Assembly: GCA_964036295.1 (NCBI GenBank)
Contig: OZ038469.1
Span: forward strand, 5,162,067-5,226,066
Origin: Plumapathes pennacea
Taxonomy: Eukaryota > Cnidaria > Anthozoa > Antipatharia > Myriopathidae
Reading direction: 5' to 3'
DNA length: 64,000 nucleotides
This document shows, piece after piece, positions 12,422 to 36,779 of the stretch; position 1 is the first letter of the stretch; every line of letters begins with the position of its first letter. Position numbers and translations under genes: made by a program. The notes under the pieces were generated by a model. That model had not been told where the DNA came from and did not search any database. It saw only the letters and a program-made list of their open reading frames with translations.

Positions 12422-15400
12422 CTAAAAGTCGTTATCATCACTGTCCTCAAGTATAATAATCCCGCTGAGTAAGTCTTGGGGAAGTTGTGCTTTTTTGTTT
12501 ATCCCCTTGCACTGCCACCGACTCATGAATTTTCTCAAATGAGTAAAGGGGCTTTCATTATCCGCAAGGCAAATCTTTATGGCATCTTTCAATATCTCCC
12601 ACGGGATCTTATTCCAACTGACTTTATCTTGCAGTTTCTTCCTGACTTGTTCAACAGTGATGCTGTGATGGGATTCAGAAACGAGAGTGCTCGTGGATGG
12701 CCCGTTTGGGTGGGCAGGTTTTAACGGTGTGTCGTTACTGCTCTGCTGCTGTGGTGGAATAATGGCTGATACATCACTAGGTGTTGTCTTAATTCGCTTG
12801 CTGGTGTTTAGAACAGCCTCTTCGTTTGACGGTGTCTGGTTGGTTACCTTTCTTTTGCTTCCTGCCGATTCCAGTTCTTCTTTCGTTGACAACTCTTGGT
12901 CTTCTTGGCTGCCTGGAGTACCCTGCACTGTAGGATGAGCTGTGCTTTTGTTACGAACATTTTTCTTACTTGCCTGGGGGTTTATCACTTCAAGAACTTT
13001 CTTCCTCGCTTCAAGATTTTGAATCAGGGCTTCTTGAAGATCACGTTCCCAAATCCAAAAGCCATTCTTCTGAAATTCCCTTCGTACCAGCTGGGTTCCA
13101 AGGCCAGATACACTTTCAATATCTTCAAGCAAAGTTTCCGCGTCTGCGAGGGAGCCTTTCACTTTAGAAAGCTGCTTGTACAGGACTGATTTTTTCCAGT
13201 TCTCGGAATTAAACGCCTGGATTTCTTTCTTCAGCTTTACAGATATTACATCAGCATCTAAGACAACGGCACAGGGAATCTTCAACTCTCTGGCAATGGT
13301 GTAGGCTTTCACTGCTTCTGCACATCCACCAACAGCTAGGATATCCCACTGATTCATTTCCCTTGCCTTCATAACTTTCCTGGCTTGCTTAAACTTCTCT
13401 GGAACTCTGCCTTCCCTATTCACGATGCTCGCCTCTGACATCATGAACTGCTGCACTGCTGTGAGAACCCTTTGATCTGTTTCTGTCTCTACAAAGTACA
13501 GGCCAGTTGCGAAGAACATTTTATGCATGGAAGGTCGCATTAGCATTGTCGCAACTTCTTGAGCAAAGGCTACCTGCTGTGTCATCGTCTTGGAGGACGA
13601 CTGAGGGGTTCCAGTGGCACGTCTTGGCTGTGCCTGAGAATCTATTGCAGGGGCGCCATCTAGTGTTCCAGGGGAGTGACCCTTCTCTCCTCCTAAGGCT
13701 GGCACCCCTTTGTTTGATGCAGTCTTAGTACAAAGGGTTCCAGCTGCTTGGGCTCGTAGAACCAGCCTAAACGATGTAAATCGATGTCCTACAGAGGACA
13801 TGTGGTAAAGGCAGCTCAAGGTCTGCATGCTGATGAACCCTGATGAGTGAGAGATAGTGACACACACCTGGTCTGGCGGTCGCCGAGTCTCCAGCCAGCG
13901 TCTCAACTGGACCTGCTGAGGGGGGTGGAGTGAGTGTCCAGGTTCATCAAGAAGAACACTGTCAGCTCCTGACAAATGGACGGCACAGAGGACCATGAGA
14001 AGATCCATATCACCACCGCTGAGGTCTGTCAGTTGAGTTGTGATGCTATAAGATGAATCTACGTTCTGCACTGTGCGTTTTACTAACACTTCCAGGCTGC
14101 TGGTCAAACACCGCGACTGCTTGACTATCTGCTCACCTAATTTACTCAGGCCTTTACCTACATCAAGGGACGAGGTGCCATGGGAGCGTAACAGCTCATT
14201 CTCAAACCTCCTTATGGCTTGTGCGTTCTGTTCACAGGTCTCATGGAAATGCTGCTCGCGCACGTGGATGCCAAGGCCACAAAAAGTATTAAAGGCATCA
14301 ACCACATTCTTGAACTTCCTCCGTTTCAGCTCATCTGAACTGTGACAAAATGACAGGAGAAACGAAACTAAAGTTGCAAGCATTGAAACCTGAGACACGA
14401 CCACGTTACTGAAACACAAATCCGCCTTGTGGCACCTCTAGTCCCCGAGCGAAGCGAAGCGAAGTGAGGGTAATAATCACGGCGCTAATGCAGCAAATTC
14501 GCTTTGTGTGGAGACTCCAAGCCAGTCGCCATCTCGAAATCTAATGTTCGTCAGTCAGTCTGTCAGTCTGTCAGTCTGTCAGTCTGTCAGTCTGTCATAG
14601 GGCGACCTCTAAGGCAATGACTTAATAATAATTATCGATTAGCGTCAAAGCGAGGTCAAACAAAGGTTTGAATGAAGCAACAACTGTACGTAACTGCGTT
14701 TACGAAAATGAATTTGAAAACTGGAAAACTTGACACAGCACGGTCTCGCGAAGCTCGTCTGCAAAAGAGAAGGGAACTAGCACGGGCAAGGCGAAATCGT
14801 GAAACAATCGAACCGCGCCAAATACGTCTAGAGAAAAGACGACAAACATTTGATAACCGACAGCATCATGAACGGAAGCTTGCCGAAGAAACGGCTCCGC
14901 AAAGGGAACAGCGCTTGGAAGCAAATCGGGAGCTTCAGACGCCATCTTGTGTTAAACTCAGATCCTTATTCAGAAAGGACAAGCAACAAAGGTTAGTCAG
15001 TGGAAAGCGAACAATCACCGTGACAAATATATTCTAACCGTATCTTGTAACTCGATCACTTCAAGAATGTATTAAAATCTGTATGCTGATCATTTTCCCT
15101 TAGTGAAGTATTGTTTTAGTACGCTTCTGTCGCCAGTTTCGGCTACCGTATTGGCTCAGAGCAATCGAAACTTGGAGTCTTGAATGATTTAGTCAGATGT
15201 CTTATTATTTCTTTCAAGACTAAAACTGTAACAAATACTGTAATTTGACATGCGGTGATTGCAGCGAGAATCGTTCACAAGCCCTTAGAAGTATGACTAG
15301 GTCTGAAGCCCGTGTATAATTTGAAGTAAGCCGTTGAAGTTTTGCTTTGATTCTGGGAGAAATCATGTTGTTTTGAGCGCGTTCACGTACAAAACAATTC

Positions 15401-18400
15401 GAGCTCATTAAACATGCATGCCTGAGTCTTGTGCGTGTAATCCAGACTAAAAACAAATTGCACAGGAAGCCTATTTAATTGTACTGCCTATGAATTCAAA
15501 ATTGGAAAATCAGCGTTCCTTTTTTTCCGTACTACGACGGCCGACCAACTTCAAAATTGAATTGAATATTAAATTTGAGAACGTGCTTGGCAGACTGTAT
15601 GAATTAATTTGACGTGCAGACCGTGGGAAATACGTACTTCGTCACGCAATCGACTCTTATAACACACACCATTCTTTTTCATCTCCTTTGCGTGTAGCAC
15701 TTGACTTCGAAGAGAAGATTGAGTCAACATTTCGGTAAAACAAAGGCTACTCTTGTTGGGAGTACCAAAGTAAAAGTCCCATCAATGGCAGAGCGAGGGG
15801 GTATCTGCGATTATGTATTTCTAGTATTTTTAGGCGATTCGTTACAAAACGCGGTAATCCTCGTATGCCCCTCCCACAACTGTGTCTTCAGTTCGATCTG
15901 GTGTCCGTACGTGAAACGAAACTGCTTGAGCTCAGCGCGACACCCAGGGGTTTTCTACAAGGTATACGGACCTCTGCCCTCTACAAATGCAATTTTCACG
16001 CCAAAATTCGTTCGTCGATCTTATTGGCCACGAGTGCCTGGCTTTAAGTATTTGGCAACCCCCTCCACGTAACGCCACTAAATACACATTTGTCGTTGCA
16101 ATGTTTTAGACTGGCGCTTCTGTCAAAGGCTACTCATAGCCAAGAAGACTCTTGTTGATTAACTAAATGCAACTGGAGGGAAAATAAAATCTCACGTTCA
16201 GCCTACGTATACGCAAAGTCACATCCCAGGCACTGGACAGGCCAGCCGGGGGTGAGGGGTGTGGTGGATTGGTTGGATGACACGCCACCTCCCCATGGGT
16301 TTTCGATGTAATGAGATTTTTTGAATATTTATTTTTTACCTTAAGTGGCTGATTTGTTACATTTTCAAGATATGACCCCTATTTTAAGGTTTTGCATGCA
16401 TGGGATCGCCCACGTTATTCCAAATTATGTCTTCCCCAACAAGGTAGTGTTTGGAAACAAGCCCTAACTTTGTTCAGAAGCGAATAAAATCTAACTAAAT
16501 ATCAATATTTTATCAGCGCCGGTAAAATATTTTTGGAAAACCGGAAGGGTTGGGATGGTTAACATAAACACTGAGACCCGAAGATTAGATGAAATATACA
16601 AATACCTCAAACTGGAATGGATCAGCATTCTCTCCACTTTATTCACGTCAAGTGACAGCCTGCTTCCTTGTCCGAAGGGTCCTCTGTTCTGTGGAAGAAT
16701 ACAGAGACTGCTTTCCAAGAAATGTTTGGCCACTTTCTCAACAAACGGTTGCTTTCCAGTGGAATGGATTTCACCAGGTTCACTTTGTCCATGCAGACAA
16801 CGTGAAAGCCATTTCAAAACATCTGATGACTTCTGCATTATCTCAGCAAGATCCTTTTGGTAGCCATCTAGCCTTGTTCTTACACTGCCAATCTTCTTTA
16901 GGTTTTCGCCAGGAGTTTTATAGCAGTACAGGTGTGGCGATCCAAAGCGTTTGCAGCTCACCAGATTAGAGACCAGTTCCTGAAGAGACAGATTCTCCAC
17001 TGTATTACTGGCATCCTTATCTGAGAAAAAAGAACAATTTAAAATTAAAGAGTTTAGATACGTTTTAAACGTGCATGATGCTGTTTTTGAAAGCACTAGC
17101 AACACTGTAACTTTTCACTTGTTTGGCACTACAACAGTTTACCTGGCTAACCTTTGCGCGCAAGCTCGTACATGTTGTTTTTTCTGATACAAATTCTTGC
17201 TCTAACTTTTTGTATCGTTTTGTCAAGGCAGGTTGTAATTTTTTCCATTACTCTTGTGAAGACCAAGAAGAACAATGATCAATACCTTTCATCGATTGTT
17301 CGGTGAATTCATACAATGTTTCGTTATGGTTGGGAACGTTTTCTATAAAACGCATAACATTTAGATGAATAGAACGCTTTGTGTCTCTTGTTGATAGTCC
17401 TGGTCCACTACCAAAGCACCGTATTAAACTTAAAACACAGGACCTATATGATATAATGAATGGTGCTTTGCCTGCTTTAGTTTGTTGTCCCCGAGCGAAG
17501 CGAAGCGAAGTGAGGGTAATAATCACGATGCTAATGCAGCAAAATCGCTTTGTTTGGACACTCCAAGCGAGTCGCCATCTCAAAATCTAATGTTCGTCAG
17601 TCTGTCATAGGGCGACCTTTTAGGCCAGGTGCCTAAGCCATTAGCCAATGAGGTGCCTGAGGCAATGACGTAATAATAATTATCGATAATTATTCCGGCC
17701 GGTTCATGTGCGTGGTTAGTTTTACTGACAACAATTATTGCACGTAACTGCGTTCACGAAAATGAATTTGAAAACTGGAAAACTTGAAACAGAACGGTCT
17801 CGCGAAGCTCGTCTTTAAAAGAGAAGGGAACAGGCACGGGCAAGGCGAAATCGTGAGACGATCGAACAGCGCCAAATACGTCTAGAGAAAAGACGACAAA
17901 CATGTTATAACCGACAGCATCATGAACGGAAGCGTACCGAAGAAACGGCTCCGCAAAGGGACCAGCGCTTGAAAGCAAATCGGGAGCTTCAGACGCCGTT
18001 TGTGTTCAACTCAGATACTTATTCAGAAAGGACAAGCAACAAAGGTTAGTCAGTGGAAATCGAACAATCACCGTGACAAGTATATTCTACCCATATCTTG
18101 TAACTCGATCACTTCAAGAATGTATTAGAATCTGTATGCTGATCATTTTCCCTCGAAGTATTGTTTTAATACGCTTCTGTCGCCAGTTTCGGCTACCGTA
18201 TTGGCTCAGAGCAATCGGAACTTGGAGTCTTGACTGATTTAGTCAGATGTCTTATTTTTCTGTCGAGACTAAAACTGTAACAAATGCTGTAATCTGACAT
18301 GCGGTGATTGCAGCGAGAATCGTTCACAAGCCCTTAGAAGTATGACTAGGTCTGAAGCCCGTGTATAATTTGAAGTAAACCGTTCAAGTTTTGCTTTGAT

Positions 18401-20250
18401 TCTGGGAGAAATCATGTTGTTTTGAGCGGGTTCACATACAAAACAATTCGAGTCGTTAAATATGCATTCCTGAGTCTGGAGCATGCAGTCCAGAGTAAAA
18501 ACAAATCGCATAGGAAGCCTATTTAATTGTATTGCCTATGAATTCAAAGTTGGAAAATCAGTGTTCCTTTTTTCCCGTACTACGACGGCCGACCAACTTC
18601 AAAATTTGAGTATTAAATTTTGAGAACGTGCTTGGCAGACTGTATGAATTAATTTGACGTGTCGACCGTGGGAAATACGTACTTCGTCACGCAATCGACT
18701 CTTTTTTCAACGCAAAGGTATAACACACACCATTCTTTTTCTCCTTCCTTTGCGTGTAGCACTTGACTTCGAAGAAAAGATGAGTCAACATTTCGGTAAA
18801 ACAAAGGCTACTCTTGTTGTGACCAAAGTAAAAGTCCCATCAATGGCAGAGCGAGGGGTATCTGCGATTACCGTATTTCTAGTAGACATCTATCGGTTCA
18901 GTGACAACTGAATTGATTGACTTACTTGATATCTATTATTTGTAGACACATGCAGTGGAACAACTAACTTGGGGCTCTTAGCGCTTCTAGTCTGGTGCAA
19001 GGCCCATGGCTTAAACAATGGATTGTGCTCTTGTTTAAGATCATTCGGATCTAACGGTATCACAATGGAGACAATTAAATTGGGAGCAAATATATACCTT
19101 CGATAGTAAAGCTGATTCCAGGCAAGTCTCCCATGATTTGTCTCACAGACGTCAAAATAGCATCGTTTTCCTGCTGTAGTCTTGTTGGGGACCAGACATC
19201 ACCCACGCTAGAGAAATAAACAAATAATGTAACTTGAATTACACGAGAAAGATAGAATTGTGCATAATGTTCCAGCTAACCAAGTGGATGTAGTTTGAAG
19301 CGACATCTGCGTTATGCTGTACCGTTATTTGCGGCTGGAGACAAAACATGAAATGTAGAAAACAATACATTTTGGTAACCTCTCTTAATCTTCAGTTTCT
19401 CACCAGTTTTGATGACAAGGCTTAGATGAAAGCTGATTGAACTATTAATTCTCACCACAGAATTCGTAAACTAAGTTTTTTTAAAGTTTGGGAGAATATA
19501 CATTTAGAATAAGTTAATAAATATAAAGTAAAAGTAGTCTTACATGCTGCATGAGTGACTCAAGTCATTCCAGGTTCCTGGGTCAGTAGCTTGCACCCAC
19601 ATGAACACGTCCGAACTCTCTGGTGGACGAGACTTCTCTGATGCTACTGCTTCCTGATTAATTTTCAACAACTTTGGAAATAATTTGTCAATAATTTCCT
19701 GAATGAGAAGGCCAACACAAGGGTTACTCCAGTCTACTTCAGGACTAGGATTCGACTCAAAAATGACTTTCCCGTCGTTCACTTTTCCAACACCGCCCTT
19801 TTCAAACAGATCACGTAATGTTTCTTCAGGAACGTCCCAAAATATGTTCTCCTGGTGAAATTTATCCATCAAAAACGACAAATTGCCTTGACTAAAGCGT
19901 GCTAAATCGTGGCATAAAACCAGGTTCTTTAGCATTGTAATGCAAGAAGCAATAACATGGCAGATATCACAAAGCAGATACCACACTCTTAGGCTTGAGA
20001 AGAGTTCACCTTCTGCCCGTGTGAACACGGCATTGACTTCAACAAATGATTTTGGGGCATTGACATCCCAAATATGAACATTTGTACACTCTATACCCAG
20101 AATCCGTTTGACAAGAAAGTCAATGCACTTAATGATGTTGCTTTTGCCAGATCCATTAGGTCCAACGATCAGTGCATGCCCTTCAGTCAAGTCCAAGTCA
20201 ACATCCTTCAGGTTGTAAAAGTTGTTAATTCTTACTCTTGTGAACTTCAT
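12422..20250 (-). CDS. OLD-like ABC-ATPase/TOPRIM protein
   Basis: Four minus-strand exons, 20250-19544, 19207-19098, 17020-16606 and 14339-12422, splice through GT-AG sites with matching phases to exactly 1,050 codons (1,049 residues). The N-terminus is RecF/SMC-like with Walker A GPNGSGKS (residues 30-37). Exon 4 supplies the ABC signature LSGGD (517-521), Walker B SVLLDEP (538-544, E543) and a switch histidine in TISHS (H575). A TOPRIM-like region follows: FVETETD (E695) and the DxD in VVLDADV (772-774). The linker after TOPRIM is polar with basic NLS-like clusters (SKRK, SKRIK), and the C-terminus is acidic. Prokaryotic OLD proteins, including Gabija GajA, are DNA nucleases; nuclease activity here is inference. 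The Gly usual after the TOPRIM Glu is Thr. A splice acceptor at 20263, just upstream of the start, implies a 5' non-coding exon. Confidence 0.85.
14549..14598. repeat. short 8-base tandem repeat (GTCAGTCT)
   Basis: About six units of GTCAGTCT lie near the 5' end of Helitron-like copy 1. Copy 2 has a single unit at the same place, so the array expanded after the copies separated. Confidence 0.85.
14672..15037 (+). CDS. STPR-type peptide-repeat ORF in transposon
   Basis: A 121-residue open frame within Helitron-like copy 1. Residues ~25-90 are very rich in Arg, Glu and Gln with a period of about 23: REARLQKRRE, RQIRLEKRRQ and QREQRLEANRE with ET/EETAP linkers. This matches the score-and-three-amino-acid peptide repeat (STPR), a DNA-binding module known from silkworm FMBP-1 and seen in transposon-borne proteins. 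The frame ends soon after the repeats, so it is probably the N-terminal exon of a lost larger transposon protein. The homologous frame in copy 2 has a stop after REARL. Expression is unknown. Confidence 0.5.
   Translation: MKQQLYVTAFTKMNLKTGKLDTARSREARLQKRRELARARRNRETIEPRQIRLEKRRQTFDNRQHHERKLAEETAPQREQRLEANRELQTPSCVKLRSLFRKDKQQRLVSGKRTITVTNIF
17488..18882 (+). mobile_element. Helitron-like element, copy 2 (STPR frame broken)
   Basis: The second copy, 1,395 bases, lies in the intron between exons 2 and 3 of the OLD-like gene with the same ends and orientation as copy 1. Its STPR-like frame, starting at about 17762, carries an in-frame TAA near 17816 where copy 1 has a Gln-Lys stretch, so it is a pseudogene. 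Copy 2 also has a short segment (GGCCAGGTGCCTAAGCC) missing from copy 1. Confidence 0.55.
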
Positions 20251-29907: not shown

Positions 29908-32900
29908 TTAGTGTGCTTGAGTCTTGAAGCGCCACACATCCCCTTTGTACACCACTATAGTACTGGGCTGGGCGTCCACTCGCCAAAAGTACTCGGTGCC
30001 AGGCAGCAGCGCTTGCTTAAAGTAGAACACGTTGCTACCTCCCCCCACGGGGCCCTGGTACTCAGCAGACGTCGGGCAGGCATTGGTCACTGCCTCTCGG
30101 GTGCGGCCCAGATACACGTGGTGTGTGTTGGTGTCGTAGCCGTTGAGCCACATCAGAGCGTCGCGGTCAGCGGCGACGGTAGCAGCATTCGGGGGCACGG
30201 GCGTACACGTCTTGTACAGCTGCCTGCCAGGGATCCAGTAGTCCGTCATCTTGTTGTCGTACTTATACGGTCCTATTCCACCATGTTTGTTGTACTGCGA
30301 TATTTTCCGGGGACGAAAGTCCATGTTGTCTGCGTCAACGACTTCCGGTCGGATCTTCCCAAATTCATTGTATAACACTGTTTTCCCAGCTAAAGGATAT
30401 CGCTTTTTTTTGTGCTTTCCTCCATTGGCAAAATCAGCAGCGTTCCTCATGACGACCGTGTTCATGTTAATTTGCACTGGGTTGTTTCGAACGTACTGCA
30501 AAACACACAGCGTGCACGCACCATTTTGTTTGTCGTCTCCTTTACCCGTTTCCTTGTCGAACACCAAGTTGTTCAACACAGTGTGGTTGTTTCCTTTTAC
30601 CATCATGCCACCGGTTTTCCACACCACGTTGTTCTTCATGGTCCCTCCATACCCGACTCTTGGCGGTTGACCGTCAAACCTGAGCCCGTACTTAGGACTG
30701 GAGTGGACCCAGTTCTGCTGCAGCACCGCCTCTGACTGGGCCTTAATCTGCGTCTGTACGCTTGCGCCATCGTGTTGAATTTTTCCCCAACATTGACCCT
30801 CAAAATGATTTAGCTTAATCACAGGATTAAATTTGGAAGGACGGAATCCGGCGCTAGCCCCGTTAAAACGCATTGTGTTCCTTATAAACCTGAAGAAAAG
30901 ATTGTTGTAATTCATAAATTGAGTCATATCATATCATCATATCATTCTCATATCATATCATATCTTTAATACCAAATCACTTAATTTTCCTCTGTTGTCA
31001 CGTTTCAAAACGATTAAAGCGGAATTCATGAAAATCTCTACATGGTTATTACAAGCATCGTAGGTGACAACTTGGAACTTTTAGAAAAATCTAGAACGGG
31101 AAACCGAATTTAGTTACTGCTGCATAACATGCTAGGACAAACTAGTGTATATGAAAGTTTCAATTATTTCAATCACAGTCGCGCAACTATTGGTCAACCT
31201 GACATGGAGCTCCTTGTAGATTATGCGTTCTTCTTTAGAAAGAGACTTAAAACTTATAAATATCGCAAAATACACATTGACTTTCACAATCATGTGCATC
31301 CGCAAGCGGTACTTTTTACTTCTCGTATAAACGAGTGTCTGTCAAGTAAATCCCTCTTCTGAGCTTGGTTTTGTTTATACATAATTGCACTATGACCAAA
31401 GGAGCAGTTATTCCCTCTGTCTGCCAAGTTTTATGAGATATCCCGCTAGAATATCTCAGCCAAGTAAACTGCGCATGATTATGAAAGTGACTTCTGAATT
31501 TATTCTTCGTAAACGTCGTGTTATCTTAAAGAGAGCTTTTCGGATGACTGCTGAAAACCAAAACCAAAACCAAAAGCAAAGTTATTGTTATTGTTATTGT
31601 TATTGTTATTGTTATTGTTATTGTTATTGTTATTGTTATTGTTATTGTTATTGTTATTGTTATTGTTATTGTTATTGTTATTGTTATTGTTATTGTTATT
31701 AAGGCCTTGTTCCGGGCATTTCCGTTTGTTGTAGCCGGGTCCAGAAGAAACCTGTCTGATATTTCACTAATTGCTTCACTAGTCGGAGGCACAATGCAGT
31801 TTAATGTGAGGACATCCGTAGCCCAGTGTTTGATTTTTTGAAGCTATTGCCGAGTGCACTTTTGCGTTGTTCCATGCAGCGATACGAATCGTTTGAAACG
31901 ACGTGTCGTGGGTTGGAGTGTGCCGCCCGGGACTGAAAACCCTTACCCTACTTCAGACCAAAATTTGCAATTTCGACCCTATTTCAGACCAAAATTTGCA
32001 ATTTTCGACCCTATTTCAGACTAAAATGTGCAATTTTTGACCCTATTTCAGACCAGATATCAAAACCTCCGACCCTATTCCAGACTAAAATGCTAAAATC
32101 GATACCTTATTTCAGACTAAAATGCTGAAAAGGAAACCCTTTGGAGCGGCACATACCTAATGTATATGGCTCATATATGGGAGTACCCCCCTCCCTCCCG
32201 GGCATCAATTAAGTTGTTGACGCTTACTAAAAATAAGCACCTGTGAGGTGCATGTGTCTACTGCGTTTTTTCTTTTATTTTTTGAGTAAAGAAATGACAT
32301 TTGCCACAGGCCACCCCTCTTGCACCACACGATAATTTGTGACGTATTTCCGTTAGCTTGAATCAACTGGCCCGCTGCCGAAATGTCGCGTCGCATCTGT
32401 GTTTACGCTAAACTGATGTTTTTTTTTTTTTCTGGGAACACCGGGGAAATTTAAAAATAGGGAAAACGTACACGCTTAATGCAGGAACAGACTGAGGGAA
32501 TGATGCCCAGACATTGAAGGCATTTCACAGATTAAAACTCTGATCAGCACAAAGAAGCACTTGCGTTACCTCGATTCCAGCGCCGCGAGGCGAGGCTGAA
32601 CTACTGGAGAAATATAGGTTCCCGGAGATGAAGGTTGCTTGAGGATGCAGTAGCCATTGATAAGAAATATGACTATTCAGTTGCCATTGGCAGTTATTGT
32701 AAACATTTCACCCCACAGCCGTACAAATAAAATTAGTAGCGATCAGCAGAACTAGGCTCAAATAAAGTAGAAATTTATTTTAACTTGTACGCGAATGACC
32801 AAATGGAAGATTCACAGGTGCTTCACATTTTACTGTCTCTGTCGACTGAAACATCGACACAAAATAATAACTGGTCGACTTACGTATCGTTGCAACGTGT

Positions 32901-35632
32901 TGTCATACTTGACACAGTTCATCAGGAAAATCGGGCAATGCATAGTACTGGCCAGAACCTTTCATTCGAGCGTTTTCGGCACACATTTTTCCAAAACTGT
33001 GATTTGAGACAAAATTAACAAGTGGCTTTAGTTTCCCCAAAAGGGGCTCGATGCTGTTCTGCGTATCCGCGTCAAGCGTCTGCAGCTTTCCCTCGGCGAG
33101 GCAACTCATCACTCTAACTCCGTATCGGTTCAGTTGACGCCAAGTTCGTCGATTCACAACACTGAAGAAACCTTTCGTTTGAGCTTTAAGCTTGAAGCAA
33201 TTCATATGAAATATTCACTAACCCGATCGCCTCGCTGAAAAAGCTGTGACCTCATGGGTTTCTCGTGATCACGAGCTTGTCACGAACCAGCCTTCGCCGC
33301 CCTGTCATTGTTTCCTCGAGAAAAGGTGAAGTTCGTGTACAATCGGTATTCCAGTGCTTCCTTTTATTGGTCCCGAATATTAACGCGCGATCATTTATCG
33401 ATTCCTACATTACTCATTACTTACATTACACGACCAATAGCATAGTGTCTACACTTCTTCGAAGCATTAGACACAAAAAGGGGAAACAAATTTGCTTGTA
33501 TGTTACCTGTCTCGGTAGCCATTGGAGAAAACATCTGCCAGGCCTCCGCTCTTACTCCTCATGTTGGCTGCCGTCCAGTCGTTGAATTCAAACAAGTTGT
33601 TCTCCAGTCTCACACCCATGCCTTCGTATTGTAGCACCGCGCCGTCCGAGCCGTAAAACGTGTTGTTGAAGAACGTAAACGTTTTGCCGCTGCTGCCGAC
33701 TTTGGTCCATTCAGGAGGATCAGCATTACCCAACATGCGTCTGGAATACGAGGGATAACTGAAGTTTAAAGAGTGGAACGTCAAGTTACTCACAGGGCTG
33801 TGTTTCCCGACTGCCAGCGCCTTCAGAGTTGTGGCAAAGAAAGTCATCTGTTTGATAACGAGGTGTTCACTCCTTGTGATCACAAAGGCATACGTTTGGA
33901 CCTTGAATAATGATTAAAAAAAAGGATCAGAACCGCATTGTATTCTTACAACAATGCCTTGCTATGTTTCTGTCATTATTTTTATATATTTCTATATGCA
34001 TCTATAATAGGTCTACATTTACTTATATAGGTTTACCTCTCTACATCAATGTTAACATGATTATCACGTCTAAAAGCACGCACACTTATCCCATTTTGTG
34101 TCTTTGTATCTTATCACGTTTCCCTATTCTACTGTTTTTCTTTTTTGTCTTGGTTTTTGTGAAGAGCATACTGAGCAGCATAAGAAAGTCAAAATGTAGA
34201 TTCTCTCCTCCTTTTGAAGCAAATGCACGAGTGTTGTAATTATAACTTATAGTTTAATCCGGTTCATTTGAGTAAATCAAAAGCCAAGTTCCCCACACTG
34301 TATAATATTTTTTTGGGTGAGAAATTGAAAGAGAAAATTGAAGTTGATCACTCTTGGGAGTCTCGCTCTAGTCCAGAGATTGCTTATTCAATAATTCATA
34401 TGGTGCGTGCGGACACTTGCCACACCAAACTTGAATCCCAGCATCTGTCGCGTTTTCACCCGACAAAACTTGTTTACTGTTACTTGTAACTTACATTATC
34501 ACTAGATACACATAGATCATCATCCAATCATTGTAGAAACCAGACAGAAATACATGCTATATACGGGTAATGGGTACATTAGCCATGGAAAGGACCAGCA
34601 ATGTATATAAGTTGGCCTTCCTGCTGGAACCAATGCAGCCTTTCACTAACACTTCCTGTCCCCGGGGGTTCCTGCATAGGCTGTTTTGTACTACAATTGT
34701 ATTTTTTAATTTAGGTATTTCGTCTCCTGCTAAAGTCGGTTTCTTAATATGTTAGGGATTAATAACGTTAACACTGTGTTGTTGAGTAATACAGGTGCTT
34801 TGTCAGATACCTTGCCGCGCACATTCGTGGGTTTGTTGCCGTCATAAGTCTTTACGTACAAGTTCTTGGTGTTCTTGTCGTAGAACCATTCCCCCGCCTG
34901 GTCCAGGAAATCCAACTTGTCTTCCAAAAAGTACTGGTTCATTTTAGGTTTGAATTTGATGTCGCCAAATACGTCGTAATACGTAAAAGAGTTGCTTTTT
35001 GGCGCGTGGCTTTTCACGACGGCAGTGAAGGTGTTGAAGCTGCCGATGTTCAATATTGCCATGGCTCCTGTCGCGTTCAGCCCGCTGTTCGCGAGGTTCT
35101 TCGGACTATTGTCAATCATCAATCCACGCTTTGATCTAGGAGACGACTTCGCCCAGTGCTTGTTGAGGAATACAGTTTTGTCGGACCACAGTGCATTGGG
35201 CCAGCGGGCATTGGTCATCATGACGTCATCAACAAAAAGTTGCCAAATGTCTCTTGGTATAGCGGCCTTGTAGATCCCATCTCCATGCTCGTACCATTTC
35301 TTAGGTTTCAACTCAATAGTGCCATCAATGATAGGAACTTCATCTTTGTATCCTCGGATGATGATTGGTGCGTCTGCGCTTCCTTTTTTGGCATCAATCT
35401 GCACATCCTCGTGGTAACGACCGTCTCTGATATGGCACTCGTCCCCAGGCTTTCCTAAGGCGTTAACGCACTTCTGAATAGTGCTGAATGGCTTTTCGAT
35501 CGTGTGGCCTTCGTTGGTGTCGTTGCCTTTTATTCCGTCCACGTAGAACACATCTCCGGCCACCGTTGTGAGACAACTCAGAGAGGCAAGTGTGGCGACG
35601 AGGAACAAAAACGGGCTAATTCTTGACTCCAT
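29908..35632 (-). CDS. secreted right-handed beta-helix protein
   Basis: Three minus-strand exons, 35632-34811, 33901-33507 and 30889-29908, join in frame (AAG|GTATCT, CAG|GTAA donors; TTCAAG and CTTCAG acceptors) to 732 residues. Residues 1-26 are a clear signal peptide ending TTVAG. Next come YVDGIKGNDTNEG and PFSTIQKCV, the start typical of DUF1565/pectin-lyase-fold proteins, then repeated short strands with Asn-rich turns (LENNLFEFND, MKNNVVWKTGG, VLNNLVFD) as in parallel beta-helices. The C-terminal ~120 residues (PVPPNAATVAADRDALMW, YFWRVDA, GDVWRFKT) look like a fibronectin-III-like sandwich. The fold is shared with polysaccharide lyases (PL6-like) and with non-enzymatic adhesins, so an extracellular polysaccharide-binding or cleaving role is plausible but unproven. 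A decayed partial copy lies downstream. Confidence 0.82.
31536..31700. repeat. (TTATTG)n microsatellite at a MITE end
   Basis: About 20 perfect TTATTG units at 31580-31700, preceded at 31536-31562 by a terminal sequence close to that of the MITE at 63635-63948 (TTTTCGGATGACTG followed by GAAAACCAAAACC). It lies in the second intron of the beta-helix gene. Tyr-Cys and Ile-Thr repeats read from it are artefacts. Confidence 0.9.
31943..32137. repeat. ~31-base minisatellite, six degenerate units
   Basis: Six tandem units built on GACCCTATTTCAGACCAAAA plus a variable AT-rich remainder. The first three are most alike and the last ones have drifted (AGACTAAAATGCT). It lies in the second intron of the beta-helix gene. 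Confidence 0.85.
34216..34376 (+). repeat. dispersed repeat B, copy 1
   Basis: Related to 52650-52800. Shared stretches include GAGTGTTGTAAT, TAGTTTAATC, GGTGAGAAATTG and CTCTTGGGAGT in the same order. It lies in the first intron of the beta-helix gene. No coding capacity; element class unknown. Confidence 0.6.
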
Positions 35633-36779
35633 GGAATCAGGGATTTGTTTATCCTAAGTACGACGAAGGAAAAATAAACTCAACTTTAATTAATGTAAGA
35701 CTGACCGAGGAATAGAGAATAATTAATGAAAAAACATATATGCACTTTAACACATTTACTAGATATAAATTTAGAAGATACATTAGTTCAACGTACAGAG
35801 AAAAGCTTTTTGGGCTACAATAGAGCTTTATGATCGAGTATGATTGTTCTGGTGTTAAAAATGTTCCTTTATTGTTCTTGTTCCTTTACAAAGGAGCCTG
35901 TGTAAACCAGTCGCACTTGTCTTTGGTTTTGGCCGCTTATATTTACAGGTGAAAGAAATGACAGTTAGTACAGCTGTCGGCAAGCTGAATCAGCCTTGTA
36001 CGCTGTAGTCTTGTGTGCAAGGAAGTTCTAAATCACGAGGACTAAACCTATATACCGAATTGTACAGTTAACCCGGATATAAATTAATCTCCCTGATAGA
36101 CCACCTTTTGTGAGCGACAACTTGTTCGTCCTATTACGTCGATTGACCAGATCGTTCTTTAGTCACAAAATTAAAATAATTTCAAAAGAAATACAATGTA
36201 ACAAGCAATTTCATAACTAAAGGTGCAAGACTGTGCTTATACTGAACGGAAGCGCCTTGTGTCGTTCAGTGTTAACTTCAAGGCGTGACTCTAGTGTATC
36301 ATAGTTTCACGACTCGCTCACATTGAACATCACTTTAACAATCAAATATCACGAGGAGCAAATGAATATAATTTACTAATCGCCAAGGGCGACGACAGAC
36401 CACACTGGTCCAGCTCTTCCAGAGTTCAGTGCTTGTTTCGTGAGAAAGATGGCAGCTTATCGGCAAGCGTCAGTTACCGGCTGTTTTATTTATATTAAGT
36501 TCCCCTGGATAATTTGCAAAAGGATTGCATTGTAGGAAAACTGGACCTGGGAATGCGACCGATCTTCTGTGCTCAAACTAACCTATAACATAAATCAACA
36601 AGGTGAACAACCTTGAAGCGAGGCTTATTGTATTTATAACATATTTCATTATGAGTAGAAGTTTATTTAAAAAAAAATCTATTTAATAAACCACTGCAGG
36701 TGGATAGAATTAAAGAAAGTAAGTTTGCACAACCGTGCGCCAGATGCAATTTTAAGTACACTGTGTAGATTGTAACGTA
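35633..36779. other. upstream region of beta-helix gene
   Basis: Should contain the promoter of the minus-strand beta-helix gene. No exon or named repeat recognised. Confidence 0.4.

Follow-up and report, generated by a model that had tools for sequence, protein, structure and literature searches.

An intron-bearing, locally multiplied family of OLD-type ATPase-TOPRIM genes in the anthozoan Plumapathes pennacea

Structure of the window gene

The window analysed here is a 64,000-nucleotide stretch of the Plumapathes pennacea genome (GCA_964036295.1, contig OZ038469.1, denoted C8, positions 5162067-5226066), and searches for relatives covered the 290-Mb genome in 24 contigs. On its minus strand, from 20250 to 12422 in window coordinates, lies a gene whose four exons join into 3,150 nt, or 1,050 codons with a single terminal stop, and whose three introns are all of the GT-AG type. 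Exactly this four-exon, 1,050-codon model had been proposed in an earlier reading of the DNA made without database searches (hereafter the sequence-only reading), and it is borne out here. Our analysis indicates that the gene belongs to a duplicated, intron-bearing animal branch of the OLD family, in which it is the most altered member. Its exons are listed below.

19544..20250, minus strand: exon 1, with the ATG start, the ABC ATPase N-lobe and the Walker A motif GPNGSGKS; first exons of this kind occur at 14 gene places
20163-20140, minus strand: Walker A codons within exon 1 (residues 30-37)
19098..19207, minus strand: exon 2 (110 nt), with GT-AG junctions and tblastn matches in paralog loci L060 and L064
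16606..17020, minus strand: exon 3, an insert between the ATPase lobes, with GT-AG junctions and tblastn matches in 6 paralog genes
12422..14339, minus strand: exon 4, with the ABC C-lobe (LSGGD, Walker B, switch His), the TOPRIM domain, a linker with basic clusters, the C-terminal module and the stop

Exon 3 matched L029, L039, L035 (with the overlapping L027 and L037), L038, L046 and L033; matches of exons 2 and 3 were counted among the paralog loci retrieved. Three candidate acceptors of the last exon (14435, 14408 and 14339) keep the frame. We chose 14339 (CACAG before the junction, T after it), as the earlier reading had done, because an acceptor of this type is where the last exons align across the whole family of 14; 14435 and 14408 were rejected, the latter in spite of its better pyrimidine tract. 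The Pfam, PDB, OLD-alignment and exon tblastn runs used a 1,072-residue model that includes 23 intron-derived residues (about 412-434), and the exon 4 query of the exon-wise profile searches began with the same 23 residues. None of the best Pfam stretches covers them.

Domain identity of the window protein

The spliced translation contains all of the motifs that the earlier reading had picked out (Walker A, LSGGD, Walker B, the switch His and the TOPRIM E...DxD residues), namely GPNGSGKS at residues 30-37, LSGGD at 517-521, VLLDEP at 539-544, ISHS at 573-576, FVETETD at 693-699 and VLDADV at 770-775. Those encoded by exon 4, together with the region of the second metal site (metal B), map as follows.

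13940..14023, minus strand: ABC signature LSGGD to Walker B VLLDEP; every one of the 14 copies has the Walker B Asp and Glu
13475..13495, minus strand: TOPRIM motif 1 FVETETD (E695, D699; T696 in place of the Gly of the other 13 copies)
13247..13264, minus strand: TOPRIM DxD motif VLDADV (D772, D774), where the PF20469 match ends
13025..13066, minus strand: metal-B motif region NGFWIWERDLQEAL, the equivalent of NGIYIWKSGDIEAVY in P2 Old, with Glu replaced by Gln

A profile search had been named beforehand as a possible refutation of the assignment. It placed the window protein inside the ABC-ATPase/TOPRIM group, with AAA_21 (41.2 bits), AAA_15 (39.6 bits) and SMC_N (41.3 bits) all above their curated cut-offs and OLD-like_TOPRIM (PF20469) at 25.1 bits against a cut-off of 23.2. 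The PADLOC Old profile matched exon 1 (5.1e-11, model positions 2-80) and the TOPRIM part of exon 4 (1.4e-4, model positions 376-468); by their positions, these two matches are the two ends of one model. Searching PDB sequences with the window protein returned mainly Rad50 and ABC heads, and Thermus scotoductus OLD (6p74) was matched in the Walker A part only (E 0.002); no OLD protein was among the 5 rows of a PDB search with a paralog profile. A single-sequence AlphaFold model reached a confidence score (pLDDT) of 38. Foldseek gave no match at E < 0.001; its top row was the T. scotoductus OLD (E 0.04), and retron-Eco8, retron-Eco2 and PARIS entries were among the top rows of the structural search. 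Taken alone, the window copy is thus a modest hit, below the E 0.001 threshold of the genome-wide PF20469 search, and the case for an OLD protein becomes strong because the paralogs match too.

A multigene OLD family in the genome

At least 14 open copies and 4 broken fragments were found genome-wide, counts that are lower bounds: one copy in the window, seven on contig C3 (2.63-2.83 Mb) and six on contig C4 (7.47-7.80 Mb). In a search with window exon 4, the last-exon open frames span 574-833 residues; in the copies at C3:2721251 and C4:7472268 the match runs past the stop, pointing to shortened C-termini. Consistently, a search with exon 1 recovered 14 first exons, all lying upstream of a last exon: that of the window gene itself, seven on C3 and six on C4. 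Their order and orientation suggest how first and last exons pair in each gene. All 14 first exons carry Walker A and a similar donor at the exon end. These 14 open, intron-bearing copies with like splice sites support the eukaryotic OLD branch that the sequence-only reading had raised as one possibility.

Apart from the window copy, the genome-wide PF20469 search found seven places above the cut-off, each covering all 67 model positions. Among the aligned last exons, PF20469 matched 14 of 14 copies, AAA_21 13 and PADLOC Old 13 (best 5.7e-15); a single PADLOC profile each for GajA, PtuA and AriA likewise matched 14 of 14, as a shared ABC head would lead one to expect. A profile built from 12 prokaryotic and phage OLDs scored every copy at 32-53 bits, and the best of 280 shuffled sequences reached 5.5. 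The rows behind these matches, the shuffles and the conserved columns (alignment A1) are stop-to-stop or window frames that start with up to some dozens of intron-derived residues; for alignment A3 and the dN/dS set, the rows were cut back to roughly the acceptor position. Pfam and PADLOC profiles, profile-profile comparison and shuffled controls agree on the OLD-like architecture claimed earlier, and membership of the window gene in the OLD family is well supported by this sequence evidence.

Three of the broken fragments (C4:7515312-7515976, 7534584-7535256 and 7547371-7548250) each lie just downstream of an open copy, which suggests that the unit duplicated on C4 already included a second, dead copy. 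The C4:7491307 copy (L047) has LSRG in place of LSGG and a long Ala-Ser-Gly-Pro repeat insertion inside its C-terminal module. In the C3:2794946 copy (L042), the linker between the ABC and TOPRIM parts is enlarged by GDKTDESSSENSALAEGAS-like repeat units, giving the 833-residue open frame.

Conservation of the catalytic residues and deviation of the window copy

All 14 last exons are identical at the signature Leu and Ser, the Walker B Asp and Glu, the switch His, the TOPRIM Glu, the Asp at +4 and both DxD aspartates, and 12 of 14 have a canonical LSGG signature. The conserved residues coincide with published metal-site positions: in Burkholderia pseudomallei OLD, metal A is bound by E400, D455 and D457 and metal B by E404, T506 and E508 (PMC6755086), and the equivalents in P2 Old are E398, D453, D455, E402, D541 and E543 (PMC6755086 and further OLD work). 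The P2 Old stretch given above corresponds to the paralog consensus GFWIWEGDLExVVC. A basic stretch, EARKK, follows the metal-B motif, its register against the catalytic Lys/Arg (B. pseudomallei K562, T. scotoductus R487, P2 K550) not being fixed.

The window copy groups with the copy at C3:2730880 (support 100/100; 54-56% identity) and so seems to be a dispersed copy related to the C3 cluster. Of 50 otherwise identical columns it departs in 13, the highest number of any copy (the next have 10 and 5). It alone lacks the motif-1 Gly and the metal-B Glu, reading VET where the other 13 have VEG and DLQ where the other 13 have [DNT]LE. The Gln stands beside a one-residue gap that makes the alignment ambiguous, and a neighbouring Glu may stand in for it.

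The C-terminal module, linker and tail

Downstream of the TOPRIM domain the copies share a module that appears specific to the family.

12590..12646, minus strand: core of the family-specific C-terminal module, KLH..GGW..PWE.L in most copies
12425..12460, minus strand: acidic C-terminal tail IIILEDSDDNDF, SIM-like (resembling a SUMO-interaction motif), in the window copy only

No Pfam family exceeded its cut-off over this module in the member reported in full, and matches in others were weak: FBA_2 matched 3 of 11 members (best E 0.0026, below the cut-off in the member shown), and six other families matched one member each at E 0.015 or weaker. In the PDB none fell below E 0.1 (best E 0.12). 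The module alignment (A6) left out L047, with its repeat insertion, and the near-copies L031 and L033. We take the acidic tail to be a possible SUMO-interaction site, an idea dropped as a family trait since the hydrophobic core is present only in the window copy. As for the nuclear localisation signal assigned to the linker earlier, the basic clusters stand (a simple basic pattern occurs in the last exon of 12 of 14 copies, at varying places), and they are no proof of nuclear location.

Selective constraint on the family

Values of dN/dS (nonsynonymous over synonymous substitution rates) were 0.25-0.61 in all 29 pairs with dS < 1.6; the other 62 of the 91 pairs had dS >= 1.6 or gave no computable value, and pairs are non-independent. 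By segment, in 8 chosen pairs, the ABC and TOPRIM parts gave 0.13-0.43, and the two linkers rose to 1.62 and 1.14 in single pairs. By these measures the paralogs are under overall purifying selection, with faster linkers. When half of the differences between the last exons of the window copy and its sister were applied at random, a mean of 10.5 stops arose and 0 of 300 runs were stop-free; this result and the 13 other open copies discount an open frame kept by chance.

Genomic setting and origin

Genes of DUF4795, rhodopsin-type G-protein-coupled receptor (GPCR) and collagen type surround the window gene, and inspection by eye showed an ABC-transporter-like gene close to the C3 copies; these neighbours indicate an animal chromosome. 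Elsewhere in the window, positions 29908-35653 (minus strand) hold open reading frames with right-handed beta-helix/GH141-like segments, whose Pfam matches are below cut-off, and an open reading frame at 2125-2481 has a long poly-Asn run, probably a simple repeat. Two introns of the window gene contain copies of one repeat.

14441..15658, no strand assigned: repeat copy 1, in intron 3; not part of the gene
17487..18703, no strand assigned: repeat copy 2, in intron 2, matching copy 1 at 90-97% identity by block

An Arg/Glu-rich open reading frame of the same kind as in this repeat lies near the C3 cluster (L092:7306-7821); it presumably resembles Helitron-type frames.

At E 0.1, window exon 4 matched nothing in plasmid or phage sequences. 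Viral contigs were scanned with both the window exon and the paralog alignment, and GTDB contigs with the latter. The paralog alignment gave pattern matches, and no relative was confirmed in any of these scans, which rest on short peptide patterns, by which distant relatives would be missed. A Synechocystis-type OLD scanned against viral contigs gave no useful match. One paralog searched against plasmids by tblastn returned 22 records at E <= 1, weak and partial (best 2e-4). In a 38-row tree with known OLDs, the check that had been suggested earlier, the animal copies form one clade (100/100), set off by a branch of 2.6 changes per column, and their nearest prokaryotic class is unsupported (28/31), with long-branch warnings. 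The tree is untrimmed and sets full-length prokaryotic proteins against animal last exons; 10 prokaryotic rows were flagged as long-branch and 12 rows as odd in letter composition. A Cupriavidus locus (L016) was used in a single OLD alignment and a Halobacterium locus (L017) in none.

Interpretation and alternative explanations

In its sequence the protein is an ABC/SMC-like head with an insert, followed by the TOPRIM residues of the OLD two-metal site, with the metal-B Glu present in 13 of 14 copies, and a family-specific C-terminal module. We favour, at a probability of roughly 0.6, the view that the window gene is a dispersed member of a eukaryotic, locally multiplied OLD-type family that most likely serves as an antiviral or anti-element nuclease defence. 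The protein would dimerise through its ATPase, and ATP binding or hydrolysis would gate the TOPRIM active site. Intact copies would act on foreign or aberrant DNA by nicking or degrading it, most likely in intracellular defence against viruses or elements, and the linkers and the conserved C-terminal module may add eukaryotic targeting or partner binding. Published OLD proteins dimerise via the N-terminal region, and P2 Old requires both ATPase and nuclease residues in vivo (published work including PMC6755086); the animal copies would be expected to run the same working cycle. The window copy, which retains the metal-A residues but neither the motif-1 Gly nor the metal-B Glu, may be a weakened nuclease (a nickase or regulatory partner) or an early-decaying member. 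Single metal-ligand substitutions in B. pseudomallei OLD had no discernible effect in vitro, and some nicking persisted when one entire metal site was lost (PMC6755086); in P2 Old, every single mutant made abolished the killing of recBC cells in vivo (published OLD work). These mutant results make a weakened or nicking window enzyme plausible.

Several explanations would deny the window gene a place in a host OLD family. Were the protein a generic ATPase of SMC/Rad50 type in which a TOPRIM-like stretch arose by chance, the modest 25-bit TOPRIM score and the PDB hits to Rad50/ABC heads might be accounted for; this is extremely improbable and already disfavoured, since PF20469 matches all 14 copies, seven other places over the whole model, and the metal-binding columns are invariant. 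One point in favour of bacterial contamination or a very recent transfer is that the 2019 abstract (PMC6755086) names bacteria, archaea and some viruses as the sources of the family. The introns, the contigs of 18-28 Mb, the GPCR, DUF4795 and collagen-type neighbours and the 14 diverged copies already refute this reading, and the plasmid, phage, viral and GTDB searches above also stand against it; the earlier claim that no contamination is involved therefore holds. That the genes are cargo of a mobile element is suggested by the repeat in the window introns and near one end of the C3 cluster. It seems very unlikely: the repeat sits inside introns and also outside genes, the copies share first- and last-exon boundaries and form two local clusters plus one dispersed copy, and reading two 8-kb stretches next to C3 copies by eye, with no domain search of them, showed no transposase or polymerase frame.

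Other doubts concern function. The window copy itself could be catalytically dead or decaying within a functional family, a serious contender at somewhat below even odds. The 13 changed near-invariant columns, including the motif-1 Gly and the metal-B Glu, favour it, as do a dN/dS of 0.44 between window copy and sister, against 0.28 between the sister and another C3 copy, and the repeat copies in both large introns. Against it stand the frame open over 1,050 codons, which no neutral run preserved in the last exon, the intact metal-A E and DxD, Walker A and Walker B, and segment dN/dS with the sister of 0.28 (ABC) and 0.34 (TOPRIM). Alternatively, the same enzymes might serve genome maintenance (DNA repair, meiosis or cell-cycle progression). 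OLD, Rad50, RecF and SMC heads share the Walker A region, and the archaeal OLD Cran1 takes part in cell-cycle progression and seems not to serve antiviral defence (PMC12796447), which weighs against the defence part of our proposal. On general expectation, a family of 14 divergent copies, grouped in two clusters and with rapidly changing linkers, is unlike a single-copy housekeeping repair gene, and we regard a maintenance role as unlikely, though a good deal less so than the explanations of the preceding paragraph. The clustered multiplication and fast linkers fit conflict with pathogens better than housekeeping repair, but the cell-cycle role of Cran1 calls for caution.

The 2019 structural paper reported, on the basis of a KEGG search, that eukaryotes lack OLD homologs (PMC6755086), and later OLD papers (PMC12796447, PMC7049728, PMC7853314, PMC10568477) take bacteria, archaea and phages as their setting; a term search of the available text of the 2023 review (PMC10568477) returned no occurrence of 'eukaryot'. 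Among the matches listed there was no paper on eukaryotic OLD nucleases, most subscription papers lying outside the literature searched. Such proteins may already carry automated database names. With at least 14 intron-bearing OLD genes under constraint, this animal runs against the 2019 statement of absence, and the family is a further candidate for the set of bacterial defence enzymes that animals have kept. Intact paralogs and a natural variant with altered metal-B and motif-1 residues form a directly testable set. More tentatively, animals may keep a lineage-expanded, immune-gene-like OLD family that cuts foreign intracellular DNA under ATP control. If so, a prokaryotic anti-phage enzyme class would have become a multigene defence of eukaryotes that has gained a new C-terminal module and includes one or more members with an altered nuclease site.

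Comparison with known OLD systems

The likeness to the TOPRIM effectors of retron-Eco8, retron-Eco2 and PARIS is restricted to the head or the fold, the retron-Eco8 effector being the best NCBIfam hit of exon 1, far below its cut-off. Compact plasmid OLDs of the Synechocystis pSYSM type (L019, L075, L076) are the best BLASTP partners of several animal copies in the ABC region and are also among the few weak plasmid tblastn hits; however, identity is 23-31% over about 80-190 residues, and they stand apart on the tree. Cran1, a class 5 archaeal OLD compared by description only, is likewise an OLD-family ATPase-nuclease outside the classical defence classes, but it is an archaeal gene inherited vertically within Sulfolobales (PMC12796447). 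Class 2 OLD/GajA (Gabija) shares the ABC ATPase, the TOPRIM domain and the same metal residues, in line with the GajA profile that matches every copy; it differs in that no UvrD-type helicase was seen by eye in two 8-kb stretches beside C3 copies, a comparison made without a domain search. Class 1 OLD (P2 Old, T. scotoductus OLD, Escherichia coli YbjD) has the same order of ATPase and TOPRIM and the same Glu, acidic +4 residue, DxD and, the window copy apart, hydrophobic-W...[D]xE metal-B motif as in P2 Old, whereas the animal family has introns, linkers, a longer protein, an extra C-terminal module, many genes and about 20% identity, and mostly keeps the canonical LSGG where the class 1 signature is reported to be degenerate.

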